Positions 28,026 to 39,314 of a DNA stretch of 64,000 bases are shown in pieces. A program made the translations under genes and the position numbers. Under the pieces are notes generated by a model, which was not told where the DNA came from, ran no database searches, and saw only the letters and a program-made list of their open reading frames with translations. This stretch comes from Blastococcus sp. Marseille-P5729. GTDB lineage: Bacteria > Actinomycetota > Actinomycetes > Mycobacteriales > Antricoccaceae. The stretch spans positions 62,001-126,000 of the forward strand of contig NZ_OMPO01000002.1 of assembly GCF_900292035.1 (NCBI RefSeq). Direction: 5' to 3'. Numbering within the stretch: the stretch's first letter is position 1; each line of letters opens with the position of its first letter.

Positions 28026-30095
28026 GTGTGTGCGACAACGCCCGACGCCGTCGGGGCGACCACCGACGGACGTGAGACCGTCTTCCGGGTCCACAGCCGC
28101 GCCGCCCGCCGGATCGAGCTCTGCCTGATCGAGGCGACTCCGGAGCGCACGAGTATCGACCAGCGGTGTGTCGAGATGCAGTGCGTCGGTGGCGGCATCT
28201 GGGAGGCCCGCGCGGCGGTCGGGCCGGGAACGACCTATGGGTATCGTGTGCACGGCGAGCACGATCCCGCTCGGGGCAGGTACGCCAACCCCGCCAAGCT
28301 CATGGCCGACCCGTACGCTCAAGCGCTGGTCGATGCGCCCGGGACCTCGGCTGAGGATCTCGAGCTGCTGCGGATGTGCACCCCGGACGGGGCGCCCGAC
28401 CCCCGTGACTCCATCGCGGTCGCACCGTGGTCGGTGGTGTGCGCCGACCGCGCTCCGGTCCCCAGTACCCGCCCCCGGCTGCCGGCGGGCGGCCGCATCA
28501 TCTATGAGGCGCACCTCGGGCAGCTGACTGCGACGCTGCCCGACGTACCCGAGCGCTACCGGGGCACCTTCGCGGCGCTGCGCTCGCGGATGCTGATCGA
28601 GCATTTGGCCAGCATGGGCGTGAGCACCCTGGAGCTGCTCCCGGTCGCGCACTGGGCCAGCGAGATCAAGGTGCGCCAGCGCGGCCAGCGCAACGTCTGG
28701 GGGTACAACCCCCTCGGCTTCTTCTCCCCCATGCCGCACTACTGCGTCGCCAGCGACATCGACGCGCGGTGGGACGAGATCGCCGGCGCCGTCGCCACCC
28801 TGCACGCCGCGGGCATCGAGGTCGTGCTCGACGTCGTCTTCAACCACACCTGCGAGGGTGCCGCGAACGACCCCGCCTACCACCTGCGCGGCATCGACAA
28901 TCTGGCCTACTACCTCACCGACCCAGATGACCCAGGTCGGTATGTCGACGTCACCGGGTGCGGCAACAGCCTCAACGCGGCGAGCGAGCCGGTGCAGGAC
29001 CTCGTCGTCGCGGCGCTGCGGCATTGGGTGCAACGTACCGACGTCGACGGATTCCGGTTCGACCTGGCGACCACCCTCGGCCGCGAGCCACACTTCTCGG
29101 CCCACCACCCGCTGCTGCGGCGGATCGGCGACGACGCGCTGCTGGGCGATCGCCTGCTGATCGCCGAACCGTGGGACGCCGGCCCGAATGGATACCAGCT
29201 CGGCGGTTTCACCACGCCGACCCGGGGTGAGCCGTGGGCGGAGTGGAACGACCGGTTCCGGTCCACGGTGCGCGACTTCTGGCGCCCGGGCCACGGCTCC
29301 CGCGCGGACCTGGCCACCGTGCTCGCCGGCAGTCACTCCGTGTGGGGTGCGCGGCGGGCAGGCAGCTCGATCGGTTACGTGACCGCCCACGACGGGTTCA
29401 CGCTGCACGACCTGGTCAGCTACGACACCAAGCACAACCACAGCAACGGGGAGAGCAATCGGGACGGCAGCGCGGACAACCAGTCCTGGAACGGCGGCGT
29501 CGAGGGTGAGACCGACGACGCCCGGGTGCGGGAGCTGCGGCTGCGGCGGCAGGGCTCGATCCTCGGGTGCCTGATGCTGCAGATCGGGACACCGATGATC
29601 ACCGCCGGCGACGAGCGGGACCGTACCCAGCGCGGCAACAACAACCCCTATTGCCTCGACCGGCCGCACCTTGCCGTCTCGTGGGAGCCCACTCCCGAGG
29701 CCGACCACCTCACCGCGCTCATGCAGGCCTTCGCGTCTACTCGCCGTGAGCACGCGCCGCTGTTCGACGGCAGGTGGCTGGTCGCTCCGGGGGAACGCGG
29801 CGGCCACGTCGTCGAGTGGTTGGACCGACAGGCCCTCGCGCTCACCGAGAAGCACTGGCACGACCACGACAAGGTCCTCCAGGTGCACTACCCTGCCTCG
29901 AGCGGACGCGGGCCGTTGCTGATCCTGCTCAACGGCAATCACGAGCGCGCCATGGTCCGGCTGCCCTCCGGCGGACAGGACGGCGGCTGGCGGATCGGCA
30001 TCGACACCGCCGACCCGAGCCGGGTCGGCGTCAGCGTGCCCGACGATGAGCCGCTGCTGCTGAACTCCTTCAGCCTGATGGTGCTCGCCGACTAG
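28026..30095 (+). CDS. glgX: glycogen debranching enzyme (isoamylase type)
   Basis: GlgX, 689 residues, hydrolyses alpha-1,6 branches of glycogen or the GlgE alpha-glucan. An N-terminal CBM48-like domain (FRVHSRAARRIELCLIE, YGYRVHGEHDPARG) precedes a GH13 barrel. The nucleophile Asp is in VDGFRFDLATTL, the acid Glu in LLIAEPWDAG and the transition-state Asp in TAHDGFTLHDLVSYD. Typical GlgX features are AEIKVRQRGQRNVWGYN-like and RGNNNPYCLDRP segments. It leads a same-strand run of glucan genes, with 25 bases to the pseudokinase gene. Confidence 0.95.
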   Translation: MCATTPDAVGATTDGRETVFRVHSRAARRIELCLIEATPERTSIDQRCVEMQCVGGGIWEARAAVGPGTTYGYRVHGEHDPARGRYANPAKLMADPYAQALVDAPGTSAEDLELLRMCTPDGAPDPRDSIAVAPWSVVCADRAPVPSTRPRLPAGGRIIYEAHLGQLTATLPDVPERYRGTFAALRSRMLIEHLASMGVSTLELLPVAHWASEIKVRQRGQRNVWGYNPLGFFSPMPHYCVASDIDARWDEIAGAVATLHAAGIEVVLDVVFNHTCEGAANDPAYHLRGIDNLAYYLTDPDDPGRYVDVTGCGNSLNAASEPVQDLVVAALRHWVQRTDVDGFRFDLATTLGREPHFSAHHPLLRRIGDDALLGDRLLIAEPWDAGPNGYQLGGFTTPTRGEPWAEWNDRFRSTVRDFWRPGHGSRADLATVLAGSHSVWGARRAGSSIGYVTAHDGFTLHDLVSYDTKHNHSNGESNRDGSADNQSWNGGVEGETDDARVRELRLRRQGSILGCLMLQIGTPMITAGDERDRTQRGNNNPYCLDRPHLAVSWEPTPEADHLTALMQAFASTRREHAPLFDGRWLVAPGERGGHVVEWLDRQALALTEKHWHDHDKVLQVHYPASSGRGPLLILLNGNHERAMVRLPSGGQDGGWRIGIDTADPSRVGVSVPDDEPLLLNSFSLMVLAD

Positions 30096-30120: not shown

Positions 30121-30960
30121 ATGCATCCCGCCCCACTACCGGACACTGCCGGCCCGCCCGGGACGATCGCCGACTTCACGGTGCTGGGCCCGCTGGGCCG
30201 CAGCGGATCCTTCGTGCTGGCGACACCGCCTGCGCGCCTGGTGGACGCCGGCCCGCAGGTCGTGCTGAAGGTGTACCCGGCGGACGCCGCCACCGACGAG
30301 CACCACGCCTTCGACCGGGTGGCGGCCGCATTGCGGGCAATCGCCGCGGTGCGCTCCAGCTTCCTGGTCCGGCTGCTGGAGGTCGGTCGCAACGACGGGC
30401 TGATCTACTACGCCATGGAACATCTGCCCGGGGGTAGTCTGGCCGCACCCGCGAGCCAGTTGACCTTCGCCGAGGTGCTGCGCGCAGTGTCCTGCGCGGC
30501 GCGCGGTGCGCACGACCTGCACGAGCAGGGCATCGCGCACCGCAACATCCACCCGGCAGGGGTGATCCTGCACGCGGAGGGCGCCCGCCTGTCCGACCCC
30601 GGTCTGGCGACATACCTCAACCCGGGAATGACGCTGACCGGGCGGCTGGGTACGCCGCACGTTGCGTTCATGTCCCCCGAGCTGCTGCGCGGTCAGGAGC
30701 CGACCCGGGCCAGCGACCTGTACTCGCTCGGCGCGACTTTGCACTACGCGGCGTCCGGGCAGACCCTGCACCCGCACGTCGACGCCACCGATCCGAGCGC
30801 GGGGCTCTCCTCGATCATGTCGAGCGCACCTACGATAGACCCCGGCCTTCCGGCGCCGATCGCCCAGATCGTGCAGCAGTGCATCGATCCGGCGCATCAG
30901 GACCGCCCCAAGACCGCCGGCGATCTGGCTGATCGCCTCGATGCACTCTGGAAGCGATGA
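30121..30960 (+). CDS. protein kinase-like protein with degenerate catalytic loop (pseudokinase)
   Basis: A 279-residue protein with an eukaryotic-like Ser/Thr kinase fold and no membrane segment. The ATP-site Lys is kept (QVVLKVYP), as is the P+1 element (FMSPELLRGQEPTRASDLYSLGATLHY). The catalytic loop reads HRNIHPAGV instead of HRDxKPxN, losing the catalytic Asp, the Lys and the Asn; the DFG motif reads SDPGL. The P-loop is also poor in glycine. Phosphotransfer is therefore unlikely, and a scaffold or sensor role is inferred. The ATG has AGGAGG nine bases before it. It is followed one base later by the FHA gene, a classic kinase-signalling partner. Confidence 0.85.
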   Translation: MHPAPLPDTAGPPGTIADFTVLGPLGRSGSFVLATPPARLVDAGPQVVLKVYPADAATDEHHAFDRVAAALRAIAAVRSSFLVRLLEVGRNDGLIYYAMEHLPGGSLAAPASQLTFAEVLRAVSCAARGAHDLHEQGIAHRNIHPAGVILHAEGARLSDPGLATYLNPGMTLTGRLGTPHVAFMSPELLRGQEPTRASDLYSLGATLHYAASGQTLHPHVDATDPSAGLSSIMSSAPTIDPGLPAPIAQIVQQCIDPAHQDRPKTAGDLADRLDALWKR

Positions 30961-30961
30961 G

Positions 30962-32281
30962 ATGACGCTGCGATACGAAGTGACGCCCGGCGAGGGAATG
31001 GTCGCCCGGTACGGCGACAGCATCGTGTGGGTGGGCGCCCCAGTGGCGTCCGAGGCGTGGGAGGCGCTCGGCGCGGTCCTCGAGCTCGGCCCGGGCGAGG
31101 ATCCCGACGGCGCGGACACCGCGAGCCGGCTGGCGTCCCTGCAACGCGTCCTCGACGAGCATCCCCGCACCGTGTTCGCTGCACTCGTGGTGGACGGCGA
31201 CCAGGCGCAGGGCATCCTCCGTGGCCCGGTCACCGTGCGGAATGCGACCGACATCGCCCCGGCGACCGGGCATGACCAGTTCGGGGTCACGGTGCCCTTC
31301 CCGATGTCCGAGGCGGTGTTCGTCGGCTTTCACCAACCCGGCAGCAACCCGCCCGCCAGCGCAGGGCTGCTCGACCTCGATGCGGGCGTCGTCCCGGGCG
31401 CGGGAGCCTGGGTGCACCCGGTCCCCTCGGGGCGCCGGCATGCCGACGGCGAGCACGCATCATCCGCAGCCCAGCCGCTGCCCCCCGCGACCGGAACCGA
31501 CCAGCAGCCGCCGGAGCCACCCGAGTCGGCCGGCTCGTCCGGCTCGTCCGGCTCGCCCACCGGCTGGCCGGAGCCGGGTCTCGGCGCCGCACCGCCGCCT
31601 GGCGTCACCGTCTCGAGCCCAGGATTCGCCGACGCCGCGGTCGACGCTCCACCCACCGAGCAACGGCCGGCGCCGCCGGCTACCGGCGAGCACCAGGCGC
31701 AGCCCCAGGACCTCCCGCCGGTCGACTCCTCGGGCACCTGGGCGACACCCGCCGCCGGGGCGGCCGCGCCAACGGCGCCCGCACCCACCGCCGGCGGCGC
31801 CGCTGCGTTCACGCCGGCCGCCGACCACCAACGCACCGATCTGCGTGATGTCTCCGCTCCGGTGAAGGCCGACCCGCTTCCCCCGATCGGCGGACCGGAC
31901 ATCCCGGACCGGTCGTCGACGACCACGCCCAGCAGCGGAATCATCGTGTTCGACGACGGCAGCACCTTCTCCCTCGATCGTGACTACGTGATCGGTCGGC
32001 GTCCGGAGAAGGACGCCCGGGTGCAGTCCGGCGCCGCGGAGGCGCTCACCGTCGTCGATCCGGACTCGGTGCTGTCAAGCGCACACGCCCTGGTCTCACG
32101 CCGCGGGGAGCAGGTCCTGCTGCGTGATCTCGGATCGCTCAACGGAACACACGTCGCGCCTCCCGGAGCAGGCGACTGGACCAAGCTCGACCAGCATCAG
32201 GAGGTCGCGATCGTGCCCGGGACCCGTCTGCTGTTCGGCTGGACGATCGCCACCTTCGCCGGACCCGACGCCAACGACTGA
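30962..32281 (+). CDS. FHA-domain protein with long proline-rich linker
   Basis: A 439-residue protein. Residues 1-140 form an alpha/beta region of unknown fold (YEVTPGEGMVARYGDSIVWVG, VFAALVVDGDQAQGILRGPV). Residues 145-310 are a disordered proline, alanine and serine-rich linker. A C-terminal FHA domain (about 325-435) shows YVIGRRPEKD, SSAHALVSRRGEQVLLRDLGS and NGTHVAPPG, the phosphothreonine-binding layout (GRR, S..H, NGT). It starts one base after the pseudokinase stop, so the pair is coexpressed. It likely reads a phosphoprotein made by another kinase. Confidence 0.88.
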   Translation: MTLRYEVTPGEGMVARYGDSIVWVGAPVASEAWEALGAVLELGPGEDPDGADTASRLASLQRVLDEHPRTVFAALVVDGDQAQGILRGPVTVRNATDIAPATGHDQFGVTVPFPMSEAVFVGFHQPGSNPPASAGLLDLDAGVVPGAGAWVHPVPSGRRHADGEHASSAAQPLPPATGTDQQPPEPPESAGSSGSSGSPTGWPEPGLGAAPPPGVTVSSPGFADAAVDAPPTEQRPAPPATGEHQAQPQDLPPVDSSGTWATPAAGAAAPTAPAPTAGGAAAFTPAADHQRTDLRDVSAPVKADPLPPIGGPDIPDRSSTTTPSSGIIVFDDGSTFSLDRDYVIGRRPEKDARVQSGAAEALTVVDPDSVLSSAHALVSRRGEQVLLRDLGSLNGTHVAPPGAGDWTKLDQHQEVAIVPGTRLLFGWTIATFAGPDAND

Positions 32282-32341: not shown

Positions 32342-34336
32342 ATGGACGCTGCACGGATCGAGAAGGCGCTCTCCGCGGACCGGATCGGCATCACCGACAT
32401 CTCCCCCGTCGTCGACGACGGCCGCTTCCCCGCCAGGTGCATCGACGGCCAGGTGGTGACCTTCTGGGCCACTGTCTTCCGCGAGGGACACGACGCCGTC
32501 GGCGCTACCGCGGTGCTGAGCAAGGACGGGCAGGACGTCGCCAGCGCCCGCATGCGGCCCGTCGGGATCGGCACCGACCGCTGGAGCACCGACCTGTCGA
32601 TCGACGGCGAAGGTGAGTGGGAGTTCCGGATCGAGGCGTGGGGCGATCCGTGGGCCACGGTCCACCACGCGATCACCGCCAAGCGCGAGGCCGGCCAGGG
32701 TGCCGACGAGCTCGCCAACGACCTGGCGCTCTGCGCGACCATCCTCGAGCGCGCTGCTGCTGACCTCGAGGGCACGCAGGCCGCTGTGCTCCGGGACGCC
32801 GCGCTGCGGGTGGCCGATGCCTCGCTTCCGATCGACGACCGGCTGGCCGCTGTGCTCGGTGAGCGCGTCGGGACCCTGATGCACGAGAGCCCGCTGCGCG
32901 AGCTGGTCACCGCCAGCCCGCGCTACCGGATCTGGGCGGACCGCGCCCGGGCCGCGGTCGGTGCCTGGTACGAGCTGTTTCCGCGGTCCACCGGCGGCTG
33001 GGACGAGCACGGCCGGCCCGTCCACGGAACCTTCACCACCGCGGCGGCTGCCCTCGACCGCGTTGCTGCGATGGGCTTCGACGTGGTCTACCTGCCGCCG
33101 ATCCATCCCGTGGGCGAGATCAACCGCAAGGGCCCGAACAACACCTTGACTCCCGGGCCGGACGACTGCGGCTCACCGTGGGCGGTGGGCTCGAAGGACG
33201 GCGGGCACGACGCCGTCCACCCCGATCTGGGCACCATCGACGACTTCGACGCCTTCGTGGACCGGGCCGGCGAGCTGGGCCTGGAGATAGCGCTCGATCT
33301 GGCGTTGCAGTGCGCCCCGGACCACCCATGGGTGGCCGAGCATCCCGAGTGGTTCACGACCCTGGCCGACGGCACGATCGCGTACGCCGAGAACCCGCCG
33401 AAGAAGTATCAGGACATCTACCCGCTGAACTTCGACAACGACCCTGTGGGGCTCTACAAGGAGGTCTACCGGGTCGTACGCTTCTGGGTCGAGCACGGCG
33501 TCCACGTCTTCCGAGTGGACAATCCGCATACCAAGCCGATCAACTTCTGGAACTGGCTGATCTGGGAGATCAAGCGCGACTACCCCGACGTCGTGTTTCT
33601 CGCCGAGGCCTTCACCCGCCCAGCGATGATGAAGGGCCTGGGAATGCGCGGGTTCTCGCAGTCCTATACCTACTTCACCTGGCGGACCGAGAAGTGGGAG
33701 CTGGAGGAGTTCGGCCGTGATCTGGTCGACTCCGCTGCCTACCTGAACCCGAACATGTTCGTAAATACTCCCGACATCCTGCACGCCACGCTGCAGTACG
33801 GCGGACCCGACATGTTCAAGATCCGGGCGGTGCTCGCCTCGATGATGTCGGGATCGTGGGGTGTCTACAGCGGATATGAGCTCTTCGAGCACGTGGCGGT
33901 GAAGGCCGGCAGCGAGGAGTACCTCGACAGCGAGAAGTACCAGCTCCGTCCTCGTGACTGGCAGCGAGCCCGCGACGAGGGGCGCAGCCTGGAGCCTTTC
34001 CTCACCCAGCTCAACGAGATCCGGCGAGCGCATCCGGCGGTGTCCTCCAGCATCGCGAACCTGCAGTTCCACCACAGCGACAACGACGCGATCATCGTCT
34101 TCTCGCGACGCGACGCACGCACCGGTGACACCGTGCTCGTCGCGTGCTCGCTCGACTCGCACCACACCCAGCAGACGACCGTCCGGCTGAACATGCCGGC
34201 GCTCGGGCTGGGCTGGAACGACCGGTTCACCGTCATCGACGAGCTGACCGGCGCCGAGTACGAGTGGGGCGAGGCGAACTTCGTCGAGCTCGGACCGGCG
34301 GGCGAGCCGGCGCACATCTTCCAGGTTCGCCAGTAG
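32342..34336 (+). CDS. glgE: alpha-1,4-glucan:maltose-1-phosphate maltosyltransferase
   Basis: GlgE, 664 residues, extends alpha-glucan with maltose from maltose 1-phosphate. GH13_3 features: VVYLPPIHPVGEINRKGPNN, the family insert YAENPPKKYQDIYPLNF, nucleophile Asp in VFRVDNPHTKP, acid Glu in VVFLAEAFTRPAMM, and NTPDILHATLQYGG. An N-terminal domain (residues 1-200, FFREGHD-like region through LPIDDRL) forms the dimer interface in homologues. ATG at 32342 has AAGGA 7-9 bases before it. The stop overlaps the maltokinase start by one base (TAGTG). Confidence 0.96.
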   Translation: MDAARIEKALSADRIGITDISPVVDDGRFPARCIDGQVVTFWATVFREGHDAVGATAVLSKDGQDVASARMRPVGIGTDRWSTDLSIDGEGEWEFRIEAWGDPWATVHHAITAKREAGQGADELANDLALCATILERAAADLEGTQAAVLRDAALRVADASLPIDDRLAAVLGERVGTLMHESPLRELVTASPRYRIWADRARAAVGAWYELFPRSTGGWDEHGRPVHGTFTTAAAALDRVAAMGFDVVYLPPIHPVGEINRKGPNNTLTPGPDDCGSPWAVGSKDGGHDAVHPDLGTIDDFDAFVDRAGELGLEIALDLALQCAPDHPWVAEHPEWFTTLADGTIAYAENPPKKYQDIYPLNFDNDPVGLYKEVYRVVRFWVEHGVHVFRVDNPHTKPINFWNWLIWEIKRDYPDVVFLAEAFTRPAMMKGLGMRGFSQSYTYFTWRTEKWELEEFGRDLVDSAAYLNPNMFVNTPDILHATLQYGGPDMFKIRAVLASMMSGSWGVYSGYELFEHVAVKAGSEEYLDSEKYQLRPRDWQRARDEGRSLEPFLTQLNEIRRAHPAVSSSIANLQFHHSDNDAIIVFSRRDARTGDTVLVACSLDSHHTQQTTVRLNMPALGLGWNDRFTVIDELTGAEYEWGEANFVELGPAGEPAHIFQVRQ

Positions 34337-35601
34337 TGCGCACCCCGCCCGGCGATCACCTCGCGCGCTGGCTGCTTCGCCAGCGCTGGTACGCCGGGCG
34401 GGACAAGGCTGTCCCGCACACCGCGCTCTCGATGGTCGGCGCACCGTACGAGCACGACGGTCTCAGCGTCGCGCTGGCCGTCGTGACGGCCGGTGACGGG
34501 CCGGCCACCGAGCGCTACTTCGTGCCGATCGCCCATGCTGCTGGACACGGCCTGGCCTCGGATCCCATCTATACCGGGGATGCGGAATGGTTCGACGCTT
34601 TCGCCCATCCCGCGTCGGCACGGGTCGCGATCGAGCTCCTCGGACGCTCGACGTCCGCCGTGCAGGCGACCTGGCTCGATGAGGCGCCACTCGACCTGAC
34701 CGGGTTGACGGCCGCCGCGGGTGAGCAGTCGAACTCTTCGTTGCTGACCGGGCAGCACGTCATCAAGGTGCTGCGGAGGATGCAACCCGGCCCGAATCCA
34801 GAGGTGGAGGTCGGCCAGGCGCTGCGCTCGTCGACCAGCGTGGCGACTCTCTGCGGGTTCTCACAACTGGCCGACGGGCCGACCGACGTACTCGTCGTGC
34901 ACCGGCGCATCGCGGGAGCCGACGGTTTCACCCTCGCTGTCGCGGACGCCGACCGGCAGGCGGTCGGAGAGGTCGAGCAGCACTTTCCCGGGGCGGCGTA
35001 CGAGCTGGGGATCACGCTGGGCGCGGTGCACTCCGACCTGGTGACCGCCTTCGGCGAGGAGAGCAGCGCATCCTACGGGCCGGAGCTCTCCAGGCGGCTG
35101 CTGCGCCGGCTCGACGCGCTCGCGGACCTCGACGTCCTCCAGCCCTACCTGTCCTCCGCAGCCGCCATCTTCGGGGATCTGGCCCGGGTACAAAGACCGC
35201 TGACGGTGCATCGAGTGCATGGGGATCTGCACCTGGGGCAGAGCCTGTTCACCGACGACGGCTGGCGGCTGATCGACTTCGAGGGCGAGCCGCGCCGTCC
35301 CCTCGAGGAGCGGCGCGCGCCCGAGAGTCCGTTGCGGGATCTCGCCGGCATGCTGCGATCGTTCGGCTACGCCGCGCGCTGGAGCCGCCGCCCAGGCGGA
35401 TCGGGCGGGTGGGAGCACGCCGCGCGGAGGATGCTTCTGGAAGGCTATCGGCTGCAGCGGCCGGACGCCGTCGACGAGCAGGTCCTCGAGGCGCTTGAGC
35501 TCGACAAGGCGCTCTACGAGGTCGGGTATGAGAACGCCTACCGCCCGGACCGGGTACGCATCCCGCTCAGTGCCGTGGCGGCGCTGGCCGGCCGCGGGTG
35601 A
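34336..35601 (+). CDS. mak: maltokinase (Pep2/Mak)
   Basis: A 421-residue ATP-dependent maltokinase that makes maltose 1-phosphate for GlgE. It has an aminoglycoside phosphotransferase-like fold. The N-terminal cap is WLLRQRWYAGRDK. The catalytic loop is VHRVHGDLHLGQSLF and the metal Asp is in WRLIDFEGEP. Further family sequence is RPLEERRAPESPLRDLAGMLRSFGYAA. The start GTG 34336 overlaps the glgE stop. In many actinobacteria treS lies between glgE and this gene or is fused to it; here it does not, so maltose must come from TreS or another enzyme encoded elsewhere. Confidence 0.94.
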   Translation: MRTPPGDHLARWLLRQRWYAGRDKAVPHTALSMVGAPYEHDGLSVALAVVTAGDGPATERYFVPIAHAAGHGLASDPIYTGDAEWFDAFAHPASARVAIELLGRSTSAVQATWLDEAPLDLTGLTAAAGEQSNSSLLTGQHVIKVLRRMQPGPNPEVEVGQALRSSTSVATLCGFSQLADGPTDVLVVHRRIAGADGFTLAVADADRQAVGEVEQHFPGAAYELGITLGAVHSDLVTAFGEESSASYGPELSRRLLRRLDALADLDVLQPYLSSAAAIFGDLARVQRPLTVHRVHGDLHLGQSLFTDDGWRLIDFEGEPRRPLEERRAPESPLRDLAGMLRSFGYAARWSRRPGGSGGWEHAARRMLLEGYRLQRPDAVDEQVLEALELDKALYEVGYENAYRPDRVRIPLSAVAALAGRG

Positions 35602-35637: not shown

Positions 35638-37818
35638 ATGACGTACGCGACCCCGGCTCCCACCGTCGACGCCGAGGACGTGTCGCGGCTCCTCGCGCGC
35701 AGCCACCACTCGCCGCACTCCTTCCTCGGCGCGCACCCGTTCGACGACGATCACACGATCGTGCGCGTCTACCGGCCCGGCGCCGGCACGGTCGAGGCGG
35801 TGATCGGCGACGACCGGATCGGGATGACCCGGCTCGTCGACGAGGGCGTGTTCGCCGTCGTCGTCCGCGGCCCGGTGCCCGACTACCGGCTCGCGGTTCA
35901 CTACGGAGAGCGCGAGCTGCTCGTGGACGATCCCTACCGGTGGTTGCCCACCCTCGGCGAGCTCGACTGTCACCTGATCAGCGAGGGTCGCCACGAGCAG
36001 CTGTGGGAGGTGCTCGGCGCACACGTGCGCCGGTACGAGACCGCCTCCGGCGAGGTCGAGGGCGTGTCGTTCGCGGTGTGGGCGCCGAACGCCCGCGGCG
36101 TCGCGGTCGAGGGCGACTTCGACTACTGGGGCGGGCGACAGTACCCCATGCGCTCTTTGGGCAGCACCGGCGTGTGGGAGCTGTTCATCCCCGGGCTCGC
36201 AGCGGGCGCGCTCTACAAGTTCGTCGTGACCGGGGCCTCGGGCGAGGTGCTGGAGAAGGCCGACCCGCTCGCGTTCGCCACGGAGGTTCCGCCGTCCTGG
36301 GCGGCAAAGGTCGTCGAGTCCACCCATGAGTGGGGTGACGAGCAGTGGCTGAAGCGCCGCGCCGAGACCGCCTGGCACGCCGCACCGGTGAGCGTCTACG
36401 AGATGCACCTGGGCTCCTGGCGCAAGGGGCTGGGCTACCGCGAGCTGGCCGACGAGCTGATCGAGTACCTTGACGGTACCGGCTTCACACACGTGGAGAT
36501 GATGCCGGTCGCCGAGCACCCCTTCGGCGGCAGCTGGGGCTACCAGGTGAGCTCCTACTACGCGCCGTCCGCCCGCTTCGGCTCCCCCGACGACCTGAAG
36601 TACCTGATCGACCGGCTGCACCAGGCCGGCTACGGCGTGCTGATCGACTGGGTGCCGGCGCACTTCCCGAAGGATGGCTGGGCGCTGGCCCGCTTCGACG
36701 GCACTCCCCTCTATGAGCACGCCGACCCGACCCGCGGTGAGCACCCGGACTGGGGCACCTTTGTCTTCGACTTCGGTCGCCGCGAGGTGCGCAACTTCCT
36801 GGTCGCGAACGCGCTGTTCTGGGCCGAGGAGTACCACGTCGACGGGCTGCGCGTGGACGCCGTGGCCTCCATGCTGTACCTCGACTACTCGCGCCCCGAC
36901 GGCCAGTGGCGGCCCAACCAGTACGGCGGCCGGGAGAACCTCGACGCCGTCGCCTTCCTGCAGGAGTTCAACGCCACCATCTACAAGCGCGCCCCCGGCA
37001 TCATCACGGTTGCCGAGGAGTCGACCGCGTGGCCGGGGGTCACCCGCCCCGTGCACCTCGGCGGGCTCGGGTTCGGGTTCAAGTGGAACATGGGCTGGAT
37101 GAACGACACGCTGCGGTACATCGAGAAGGATCCGGTGCATCGCGAGTACCACCACAACGAGCTGACCTTCTCGTTGGTGTACGCCTACAGCGAGAATTAC
37201 ATCCTGCCGATCAGTCATGACGAGGTCGTGCACGGCAAGGGCTCGCTGCTGGCCAAGATGCCCGGTGACCGCTGGCAGCAACTGGCAAACCTGCGCGCCT
37301 ATCTCGCGTACATGTGGGCCCACCCGGGTAAGAACCTGCTGTTCATGGGCTGCGAGTTCGGCCAGGACGCCGAGTGGGCGGAGGGCCGGAGCCTGGACTG
37401 GTGGCTGCTGGAGGACCCGCGGCACGCCGGCGTCCTGCTGCTGGTGAGCGATCTGAACCGCGTCTACCGCCAGAGCCCCGCTCTCTGGGAGCGAGACAAC
37501 GACCCGGCGGGATTCGGCTGGATCGATGCCAACGACTCCGGGAACAACGTGCTGTCGTTCCTGCGCTTCGACGGCTCAGAGCGACCGCTGGCCTGCGTGG
37601 TGAACTTCGCGGGCACGCCGCACCACGACTACCGGATCGGTCTGCCGCACGCCGGTTTGTGGCGCGAGGTGCTCAACACCGACGCGGAGCGGTACGGCGG
37701 GTCGGGCGTGGGCAACCTCGGCGCGATCGACGCGGTGGAGGAACCGTGGCACGGGCGACCCGCGTCAGCCTCGATAGCCATCCCGCCCCTGGGCGCGGTG
37801 TGGTTCGAGCCTGCGTGA
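35638..37818 (+). CDS. glgB: 1,4-alpha-glucan branching enzyme
   Basis: GlgB, 726 residues, introduces alpha-1,6 branches in glycogen or GlgE-made glucan. An N-terminal domain and a CBM48 ([21 protein letters not shown]) precede the GH13_9 barrel. Catalytic residues are in [17 protein letters not shown] (Asp), [17 protein letters not shown] (Glu) and [14 protein letters not shown] (Asp). The C-terminal beta domain ends with [11 protein letters not shown]. Full length. The ATG has AAGGAGAG seven bases before it and lies 36 bases after maltokinase, the last gene of the glucan run. Confidence 0.97.
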
Positions 37819-37919
37819 TCGCTCACGGTCCGGTGTCCACGCCGCCGGCTTGGCGCCGCTGGCCAGGCCCGCCGCATACAGTTGGGGGCACCGTCTCTCG
37901 AGCACATGAGGTTTTCGAC

Positions 37920-39314
37920 GTGAAGCCACGACTTCGACACCGCGCTGGTGGACTGTTGGCCTTGCTGCTGGCCGTCCTCGTCATCGCGGGCTGCACTCGA
38001 ACCGTTTCCGGCGTCGCGACGCTCGCGGAGGGCGGCGTGAAGAAGGACGCTCCGCCGTCCGACCTGAAGATTGAGAACGGCGACGGCAGCGAGATCGACC
38101 AGCTCGTCGCCAACTCGATGGACGACGTCATGACCTATTGGGAAGACGTCTTCGAGGAGTCCTTCGACAAGGAGATGGAGCCGCTGCAGGGCGGGTTGTG
38201 GGCGTACGAGCCCGGGCACGACGGGGCCCTCCCGTGCGTGCCTGCCAACCAGGTGGAGATCGTCGAGAACAACGCCTTTTACTGCCCCACTGAGGACGCG
38301 ATCGCCTATGACCGCGCGTTCATCGGTCAACTGGCCGACGAGTTCGGCGAGTTCATCGTGCCGCTGGTGTTCGCGCACGAGTTCGGTCACGCCATCCAGG
38401 ACCGCGTGGGCGATCCCGGCTCGAAGACGATCTCGTGGGAGGGGCAGGCCGACTGCTACGCGGGGGTGTTCACCAAGGAGGCCACTGAGGGCACCGCGCA
38501 CTTCCAGGCCACCCGCGAGGACCTCGACAGCGTGCTCACCGGCTACCTGATGCTGCGTTCCCAGCCGGGCGGCTCCCCCGACGACCCCAACGCGCACGGC
38601 TCGGCGTTCGATCGCGTGGCCGCCTTCCAGGAAGGCTTCAACGACGGCCCCGGCCACTGCTACACGGCCTTCGACGACGACCGCGTCTACACGCAGATTC
38701 CGTACCTGACCGCCAACGACAAGGCGAACGAGGGCAACCTGCCCTACGACCAGACCCTGCAGACGATCCCGACCGAGATGAACACGGTCGCCGAGACGGT
38801 CGTCGACGGCTCGTGGGAGCAGGTCGACGCCTCGGGCTTCGAGGGCAGCTCAGCCAAGTGCGACGGCGATCCGCAGGACGAGCTGGTGTTCTACTGCGCC
38901 GACGACCAGACGGTGTACTACGCCGAGAAGGACCTGATCTCAAAGGCTTACGACAAGTTCGGCGACTTCGCCGCGATGACGCTGATCGCCATGGGATACG
39001 CCGATGCGATGCTGGACGCCGAGGGCGCCAAGACCGACGGCAAGGAGGCCTTCGAGGCCCAGTTATGCCTGGTTGGGGCTTATGCCGGTGGAGCCTTCGA
39101 GGCGAGCGCCACCGGGGAGCAGTCTCCCCTCGGCGGACTGCAGCTGTCGGCCGGCGACCTCGACGAAGCCGTCATGGTGCTCATCGCGCTCGGCGAGGAC
39201 GACGAGATCCTGGCGACCCACGGACTGGACGCCTTCGACCGCATCGACCTGTTTCGGGAGGCCTTCGAGGCCGGCCGCGACGATCCCCTGGGCGCCGCCC
39301 AGAGCTGCCTCTAG
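37920..39314 (+). CDS. lipoprotein neutral zinc metallopeptidase (YpfJ-like)
   Basis: A 464-residue putative neutral zinc metallopeptidase. The N-terminus is a lipoprotein signal (LLALLLAVLVIAGC; Cys at about residue 25), so it is anchored outside the membrane. The zinc motif HEFGH is in VFAHEFGHAIQDRVG at about residue 155, and the third ligand is probably in WEGQADCYAG. The second half (about 280-464) contains acidic, cysteine-poor repeats of unknown role. The start GTG 37920 is chosen from the signal peptide and the GAGG nine bases before it. The gene converges on the thioredoxin-like gene. Confidence 0.88.
   Translation: MKPRLRHRAGGLLALLLAVLVIAGCTRTVSGVATLAEGGVKKDAPPSDLKIENGDGSEIDQLVANSMDDVMTYWEDVFEESFDKEMEPLQGGLWAYEPGHDGALPCVPANQVEIVENNAFYCPTEDAIAYDRAFIGQLADEFGEFIVPLVFAHEFGHAIQDRVGDPGSKTISWEGQADCYAGVFTKEATEGTAHFQATREDLDSVLTGYLMLRSQPGGSPDDPNAHGSAFDRVAAFQEGFNDGPGHCYTAFDDDRVYTQIPYLTANDKANEGNLPYDQTLQTIPTEMNTVAETVVDGSWEQVDASGFEGSSAKCDGDPQDELVFYCADDQTVYYAEKDLISKAYDKFGDFAAMTLIAMGYADAMLDAEGAKTDGKEAFEAQLCLVGAYAGGAFEASATGEQSPLGGLQLSAGDLDEAVMVLIALGEDDEILATHGLDAFDRIDLFREAFEAGRDDPLGAAQSCL

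Follow-up and report, generated by a model that had tools for sequence, protein, structure and literature searches.

The window, the 64,000-nucleotide stretch of the Blastococcus sp. Marseille-P5729 genome analysed here, contains a co-directional cluster of glgX, a pseudokinase gene, an FHA gene, glgE, mak and glgB, as identified from the list of open reading frames and from profile searches. The pseudokinase and FHA genes sit as a pair between glgX and glgE. The genes are as follows (window positions).

28026..30095, + strand: glgX, glycogen debranching enzyme (TIGR02100, 654.5 bits, over the cut-off)
30121..30960, + strand: pseudokinase, 279 aa (PF00069, E 1.2e-21; motifs fixed in five genomes; dN/dS)
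30962..32281, + strand: FHA protein, 439 aa, with FHA-N domain, linker and FHA domain (PF00498, E 5.6e-8; FHA-N profile)
32342..34336, + strand: glgE, maltosyltransferase (PF11896, E 3.4e-49; PF21702, E 9.7e-34)
34144..35601, + strand: mak, maltokinase, given as the open frame, the true start lying further in (PF18085, TIGR02457)
35638..37818, + strand: glgB, branching enzyme (TIGR01515 and NF003811, over the cut-off)

The stop of glgX and the start of the pseudokinase gene are separated by 25 bp, and a Shine-Dalgarno-like aggagg precedes the pseudokinase frame. The pseudokinase ends with TGA at 30958-30960 and the FHA gene begins with ATG at 30962, which bears out the one-base gap given in the preliminary description of this DNA. 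A scan for promoter and terminator consensus sequences returned no match above chance. Downstream of glgB, at 37374-39314, the window also encodes a PF04228 zinc metallopeptidase-like protein that is kept in the window's family; in another family a homologue is convergent with an FHA gene (L018, L019).

The window's family was sampled with five genomes from three genera, and the pair lies within the glgE cluster in all five, as the preliminary description had proposed to check. By domain limits the two genes are 15-18 bp apart in each of them. In two of the genomes glgX is upstream of the pair, and in two glgP is located between the FHA gene and glgE; the gene order thus differs, and the pair stays with the cluster despite shuffling. 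The kinase-like proteins are 61–78% identical to that of the window. Pairwise dN/dS values for the pseudokinase (0.19–0.34) equal those for GlgE (0.21–0.35), and the pseudokinase is therefore under normal purifying selection, as strong as that on glgE.

Sequence features of the two proteins

The Pkinase profile aligns to the kinase-like protein only from profile position 22 onwards (PF00069, E 1.2e-21). The motifs that characterize the protein are listed below.

30268..30270, + strand: retained beta3 Lys, K50 (VLK), invariant in the family alignment
30538-30564, + strand: HRNIHPAGV in place of the HRDxKPxN loop; HRNIHP (30538..30555) invariant in the five family members
30595..30603, + strand: DPG in place of DFG/DLG, invariant in the five family members
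30631..30642, + strand: TLTG of the activation segment, a candidate phosphothreonine ligand of the FHA domain; T171 and T173 invariant in the alignment

The catalytic Asp, the loop Lys and the loop Asn are all absent from HRNIHPAGV, whereas the same loop reads HGD, HND or HRD in most other relatives outside the window's family. In the five family members the alphaC Glu is gone as well (AALRAI versus RELRAF), with a glycine loop shortened by two residues. Taking a pseudokinase to be a protein that has lost at least one of the beta3 Lys, the HRD Asp and the DFG Asp, the replacement of the HRD Asp by Asn in all five members places the protein among them. Translation and profiles thus agree with the preliminary description as to the lost Asp, Lys and Asn, the DPG and the retained ATP-site Lys. 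The SPE segment, which it also listed as retained, is present in the window's protein but is not a conserved feature, the relatives showing DPD, APA or SPE. Because HRNIHP, DPG, the beta3 Lys and TLTG are invariant across the five family genomes, the motif is due neither to chance nor to a sequencing error; together with the dN/dS values this also rules out local decay. A Leu at position +3 of T173 is likewise invariant in the alignment. Leu at +3 is a common preference of FHA domains.

The features of the FHA protein are the following.

30974..31420, + strand: FHA-N, N-terminal domain of about 150 aa (own profile)
31808..31852, + strand: linker motif F(T/V)P..D(H/Y)...DL(R/Q).V, conserved in the window's family
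31937..32260, + strand: FHA domain with the GR, SxxH and NGT phosphothreonine-binding residues (alignment)

Assignment to the FHA domain rests on a PF00498 match at residues 342-426 (E 5.6e-8; 33.5 bits against a cut-off of 20.7) together with the Arg, Ser and Asn ligand residues. The preliminary description of an FHA reader with a linker of some 160 residues and an unassigned N-terminal region stands, except that the linker has 173 residues. That region, FHA-N, gave no match in Pfam or the PDB, and single-sequence AlphaFold models reached pLDDT values of 40 and 39, with no usable fold. Our profile matched FHA-N in 111 of the 397 genomes searched from the order, and matches extended across the class; judged by these searches, it is a new, class-wide domain family. 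Literature searches that combined FHA with glgX, or pseudokinase with FHA and bacterial glycogen, returned no description of the pair.

Genomic settings and phylogeny of related genes

We searched 397 genomes of the order and 395 of the class with the kinase profile and the FHA-N profile. Every genome of the window's family (5/5) and of a second family, f16 (41/41), has an FHA-N gene within 4 kb of glgE. No other FHA-N gene of the order or class lies within 12 kb of glgE, a distance measurable only where the two share a contig; in the class set this is so in 11/63, many pairs being on separate contigs. The second family arranges these genes as glgE, glgP, FHA gene and glgX, with no kinase alongside. 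The glg-linked FHA proteins of both families form one clade (support 100/99) and are without the zinc ribbon carried by most other FHA-N proteins. The FHA protein thus belongs to a group of orthologs that is linked to glgE in both families, and the single clade suggests that in the common ancestor the gene was probably already part of the glucan cluster. In the second family, the motif TAFW directly precedes the FHA domain in 25/25 proteins, and in 23/25 a Glu is found two residues before its Thr (E.TAFW).

The order contains 38 kinases of the subfamily; for 35 of them an FHA-N gene is present on the same contig, in every case within 8.4 kb. Most are found beside a CPA2 antiporter, usually with an intact Asp. 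This setting comprises an oxidoreductase-like protein, which gave no match in Pfam or NCBIfam, a small transmembrane (TM) protein of 143 aa, an FHA-N/zinc ribbon/FHA protein, the CPA2 cation/proton antiporter and the kinase, the latter usually with HGD, HND or HRD and DLG; exceptions are HRS (L098, L100) and HAN (L101). The module is exemplified by L048:6368-13218, with homologous loci L042, L085-L097, L099, L101, L102 and L107, and often includes, besides the Ser/Thr kinase, a second kinase. To our knowledge, this signalling-transport module has not been described.

A different setting is found in two families, where a GH15 trehalase-like enzyme is followed by FHA-N and then by an Asp-less kinase with HRA or HRG (L103:745-4683, L104:8883-12863, L105:8440-12397). 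In a further family, f32, GH15 is followed by FHA-N without a kinase at three of the four loci examined (L141, L143, L145). All subfamily kinases located at glg or GH15 genes are Asp-less.

The five glg kinases form a clade (100/100) whose stem is about one change per site long, beside intact kinases of other families, and on the best tree the GH15-linked Asp-less kinases form a separate clade (100/100). Parsimony requires three changes of the Asp state, and a joint clade of both Asp-less groups is unrejected (AU p 0.33); judging from these trees, the two sugar-linked clades likely arose independently. Loss of the Asp is matched to the sugar context in both groups; a paired test of this match, on two pairs only, has no power. 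According to the preliminary description, an intact HRD in most relatives, or a location mostly away from glucan genes, would have spoken against its reading. Both are true of the wider subfamily, in which most members keep the Asp and are antiporter-linked, but neither is true of the glg-linked clade.

Described systems and a possible role of the pair

The preliminary statement that no described system has this layout was too strong, given the MviN–FhaA pair, the inhibition of GlgE by PknB and the suppression of a glgE defect by GarA (PMC12599244, PMC11898655, PMC11046441). In mycobacteria, the pseudokinase domain of MviN (MurJ), of the ActPs3 family, is read by FhaA after phosphorylation by PknB (PMC12599244, PMC11898655). 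This is likewise an actinobacterial pseudokinase with an FHA protein and may, by analogy, offer the working principle for the pair in the window. However, in MviN the pseudokinase forms part of a membrane flippase, is without the beta3 Lys (VALT) and serves peptidoglycan synthesis, whereas that of the window is a free soluble protein, a stand-alone ORF without a hydrophobic tail, keeps VLK and DPG and lies in a glucan operon. It was not assigned to ActPs3, whose members have lost all canonical motifs, have a deletion in the activation loop and often are membrane proteins, as it retains the Lys and DPG. ActPs2 shares with it an actinobacterial origin and the change of HRD to HRN, but has an Arg at the beta3 position, a DFG deletion, long insertions and often a C-terminal TM segment (PMC12599244). 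This assignment was rejected too: the window's protein keeps VLK and DPG, and its 279 aa align to the kinase fold and end at WKR without the features taken as criteria (a 32-aa insertion before alphaC, an activation-loop insertion of about 250 aa and a C-terminal TM). For ActPs1, GLW, CP1, DYD and DLHK the comparison covered only those motifs that the review quotes. As far as such motifs allow comparison, the pseudokinase appears to fall outside the described pseudokinase families.

GarA/OdhI is likewise an FHA protein; it controls metabolic enzymes and has no FHA-N domain. The FHA protein scored 17.3 bits against the NF041660 cut-off of 200 bits and is not GarA; the true GarA is encoded elsewhere in the genome (NF041660, 206 bits, with ETTRQFRP). 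GarA carries an ETTS switch (PMC5448819), which the TAFW of the second family may resemble. Overexpression of GarA rescued a temperature-sensitive glgE mutant, binding of GarA to GlgE was not found, and this older genetic link did not hold as a direct one (PMC11046441). Ser/Thr kinase signalling is known to act on the same enzyme: PknB phosphorylates and inhibits GlgE, and how this is controlled has been called unknown (PMC11046441, PMC4663749). In that case, however, phosphorylation is direct and a dedicated adaptor has not been described. Systems of this general kind are already known (MviN–FhaA, GarA), and the pair in the glucan cluster would be a further form.

The retained FHA residues, the invariant T171 and T173 and the TAFW of the second family lead us to propose a phospho-dependent adaptor. 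We infer from gene context, with a probability of roughly 0.48, that the pair is dedicated to the GlgE alpha-glucan pathway, with the pseudokinase as scaffold or ligand. A canonical Ser/Thr kinase of the PknA/PknB type, encoded elsewhere (eight further kinases of the genome score higher against Pkinase), would phosphorylate the pseudokinase and/or GlgE, the most likely site on the former being the invariant TLTG. The FHA domain would read this mark, and FHA-N would then hold or release one of the pathway's enzymes (GlgE, GlgX or GlgP), making glucan synthesis follow kinase signalling. The ligand would be the pseudokinase in trans in the window's family and perhaps the protein's own linker in cis in the second family, where, with no neighbouring kinase, the Thr of TAFW may act as an internal ligand like the ETTS of GarA. 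The suggestion in the preliminary description that the pair ties alpha-glucan synthesis to Ser/Thr kinase signalling gains from the fixed pair (5/5) and the glgE-linked FHA gene of the second family (41/41); it loses from the kinase relatives elsewhere, most of which keep the Asp beside antiporters. Also counting against the adaptor are the occurrence of FHA-N beside antiporters and other genes, as the domain is not specific to glucan enzymes, and the failure of GarA itself to bind GlgE (PMC11046441).

The antiporter setting of most relatives could instead mean that the two genes form a separate phospho-signalling module, merely lodged in the glg operon and regulating the envelope or ion transport. 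We consider this unlikely, since the FHA proteins at glg group in a clade of their own without the usual zinc ribbon, linkage of their genes to glgE holds in 46/46 genomes from two families that differ in gene order, and GH15 trehalase-like enzymes are recurrent neighbours of other FHA-N genes. The invariant beta3 Lys and DPG Asp might point to retained catalysis, for instance an unusual phosphotransfer or AMPylation, or to ATP sensing through these residues. This is rather improbable for a protein that in 5/5 members has lost the catalytic Asp, loop Asn, loop Lys and alphaC Glu and has a shortened glycine loop. The glg FHA gene of the second family, which has no kinase next to it, would fit a kinase that is the decaying relic of an active FHA-linked enzyme, the FHA protein alone being of importance; purifying selection matching that on glgE, and a substituted motif that is itself invariant across three genera, make this very improbable.

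Beyond the proposed glucan adaptor, a wider scheme is conceivable, and we put it forward tentatively. FHA-N proteins may be class-wide phosphothreonine adaptors, one branch of which was repeatedly recruited to trehalose/alpha-glucan enzymes (the GlgE cluster and GH15), with the partner kinase, where present, becoming a pseudokinase ligand or scaffold; this branch could then supply the regulatory link that is missing between Ser/Thr kinases and the GlgE pathway. GlgE catalyses the essential step of the actinobacterial route from trehalose to glucan and is a validated drug target in M. tuberculosis. A pair fixed in its cluster offers a direct genetic and biochemical handle on the control of GlgE phosphorylation, and FHA-N is a new domain family to place.

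In addition to its glg-linked pair, one member of the window's family, G003, carries a second FHA-N/kinase pair (L107:8216-13731), which is antiporter-linked and has an intact HGD.
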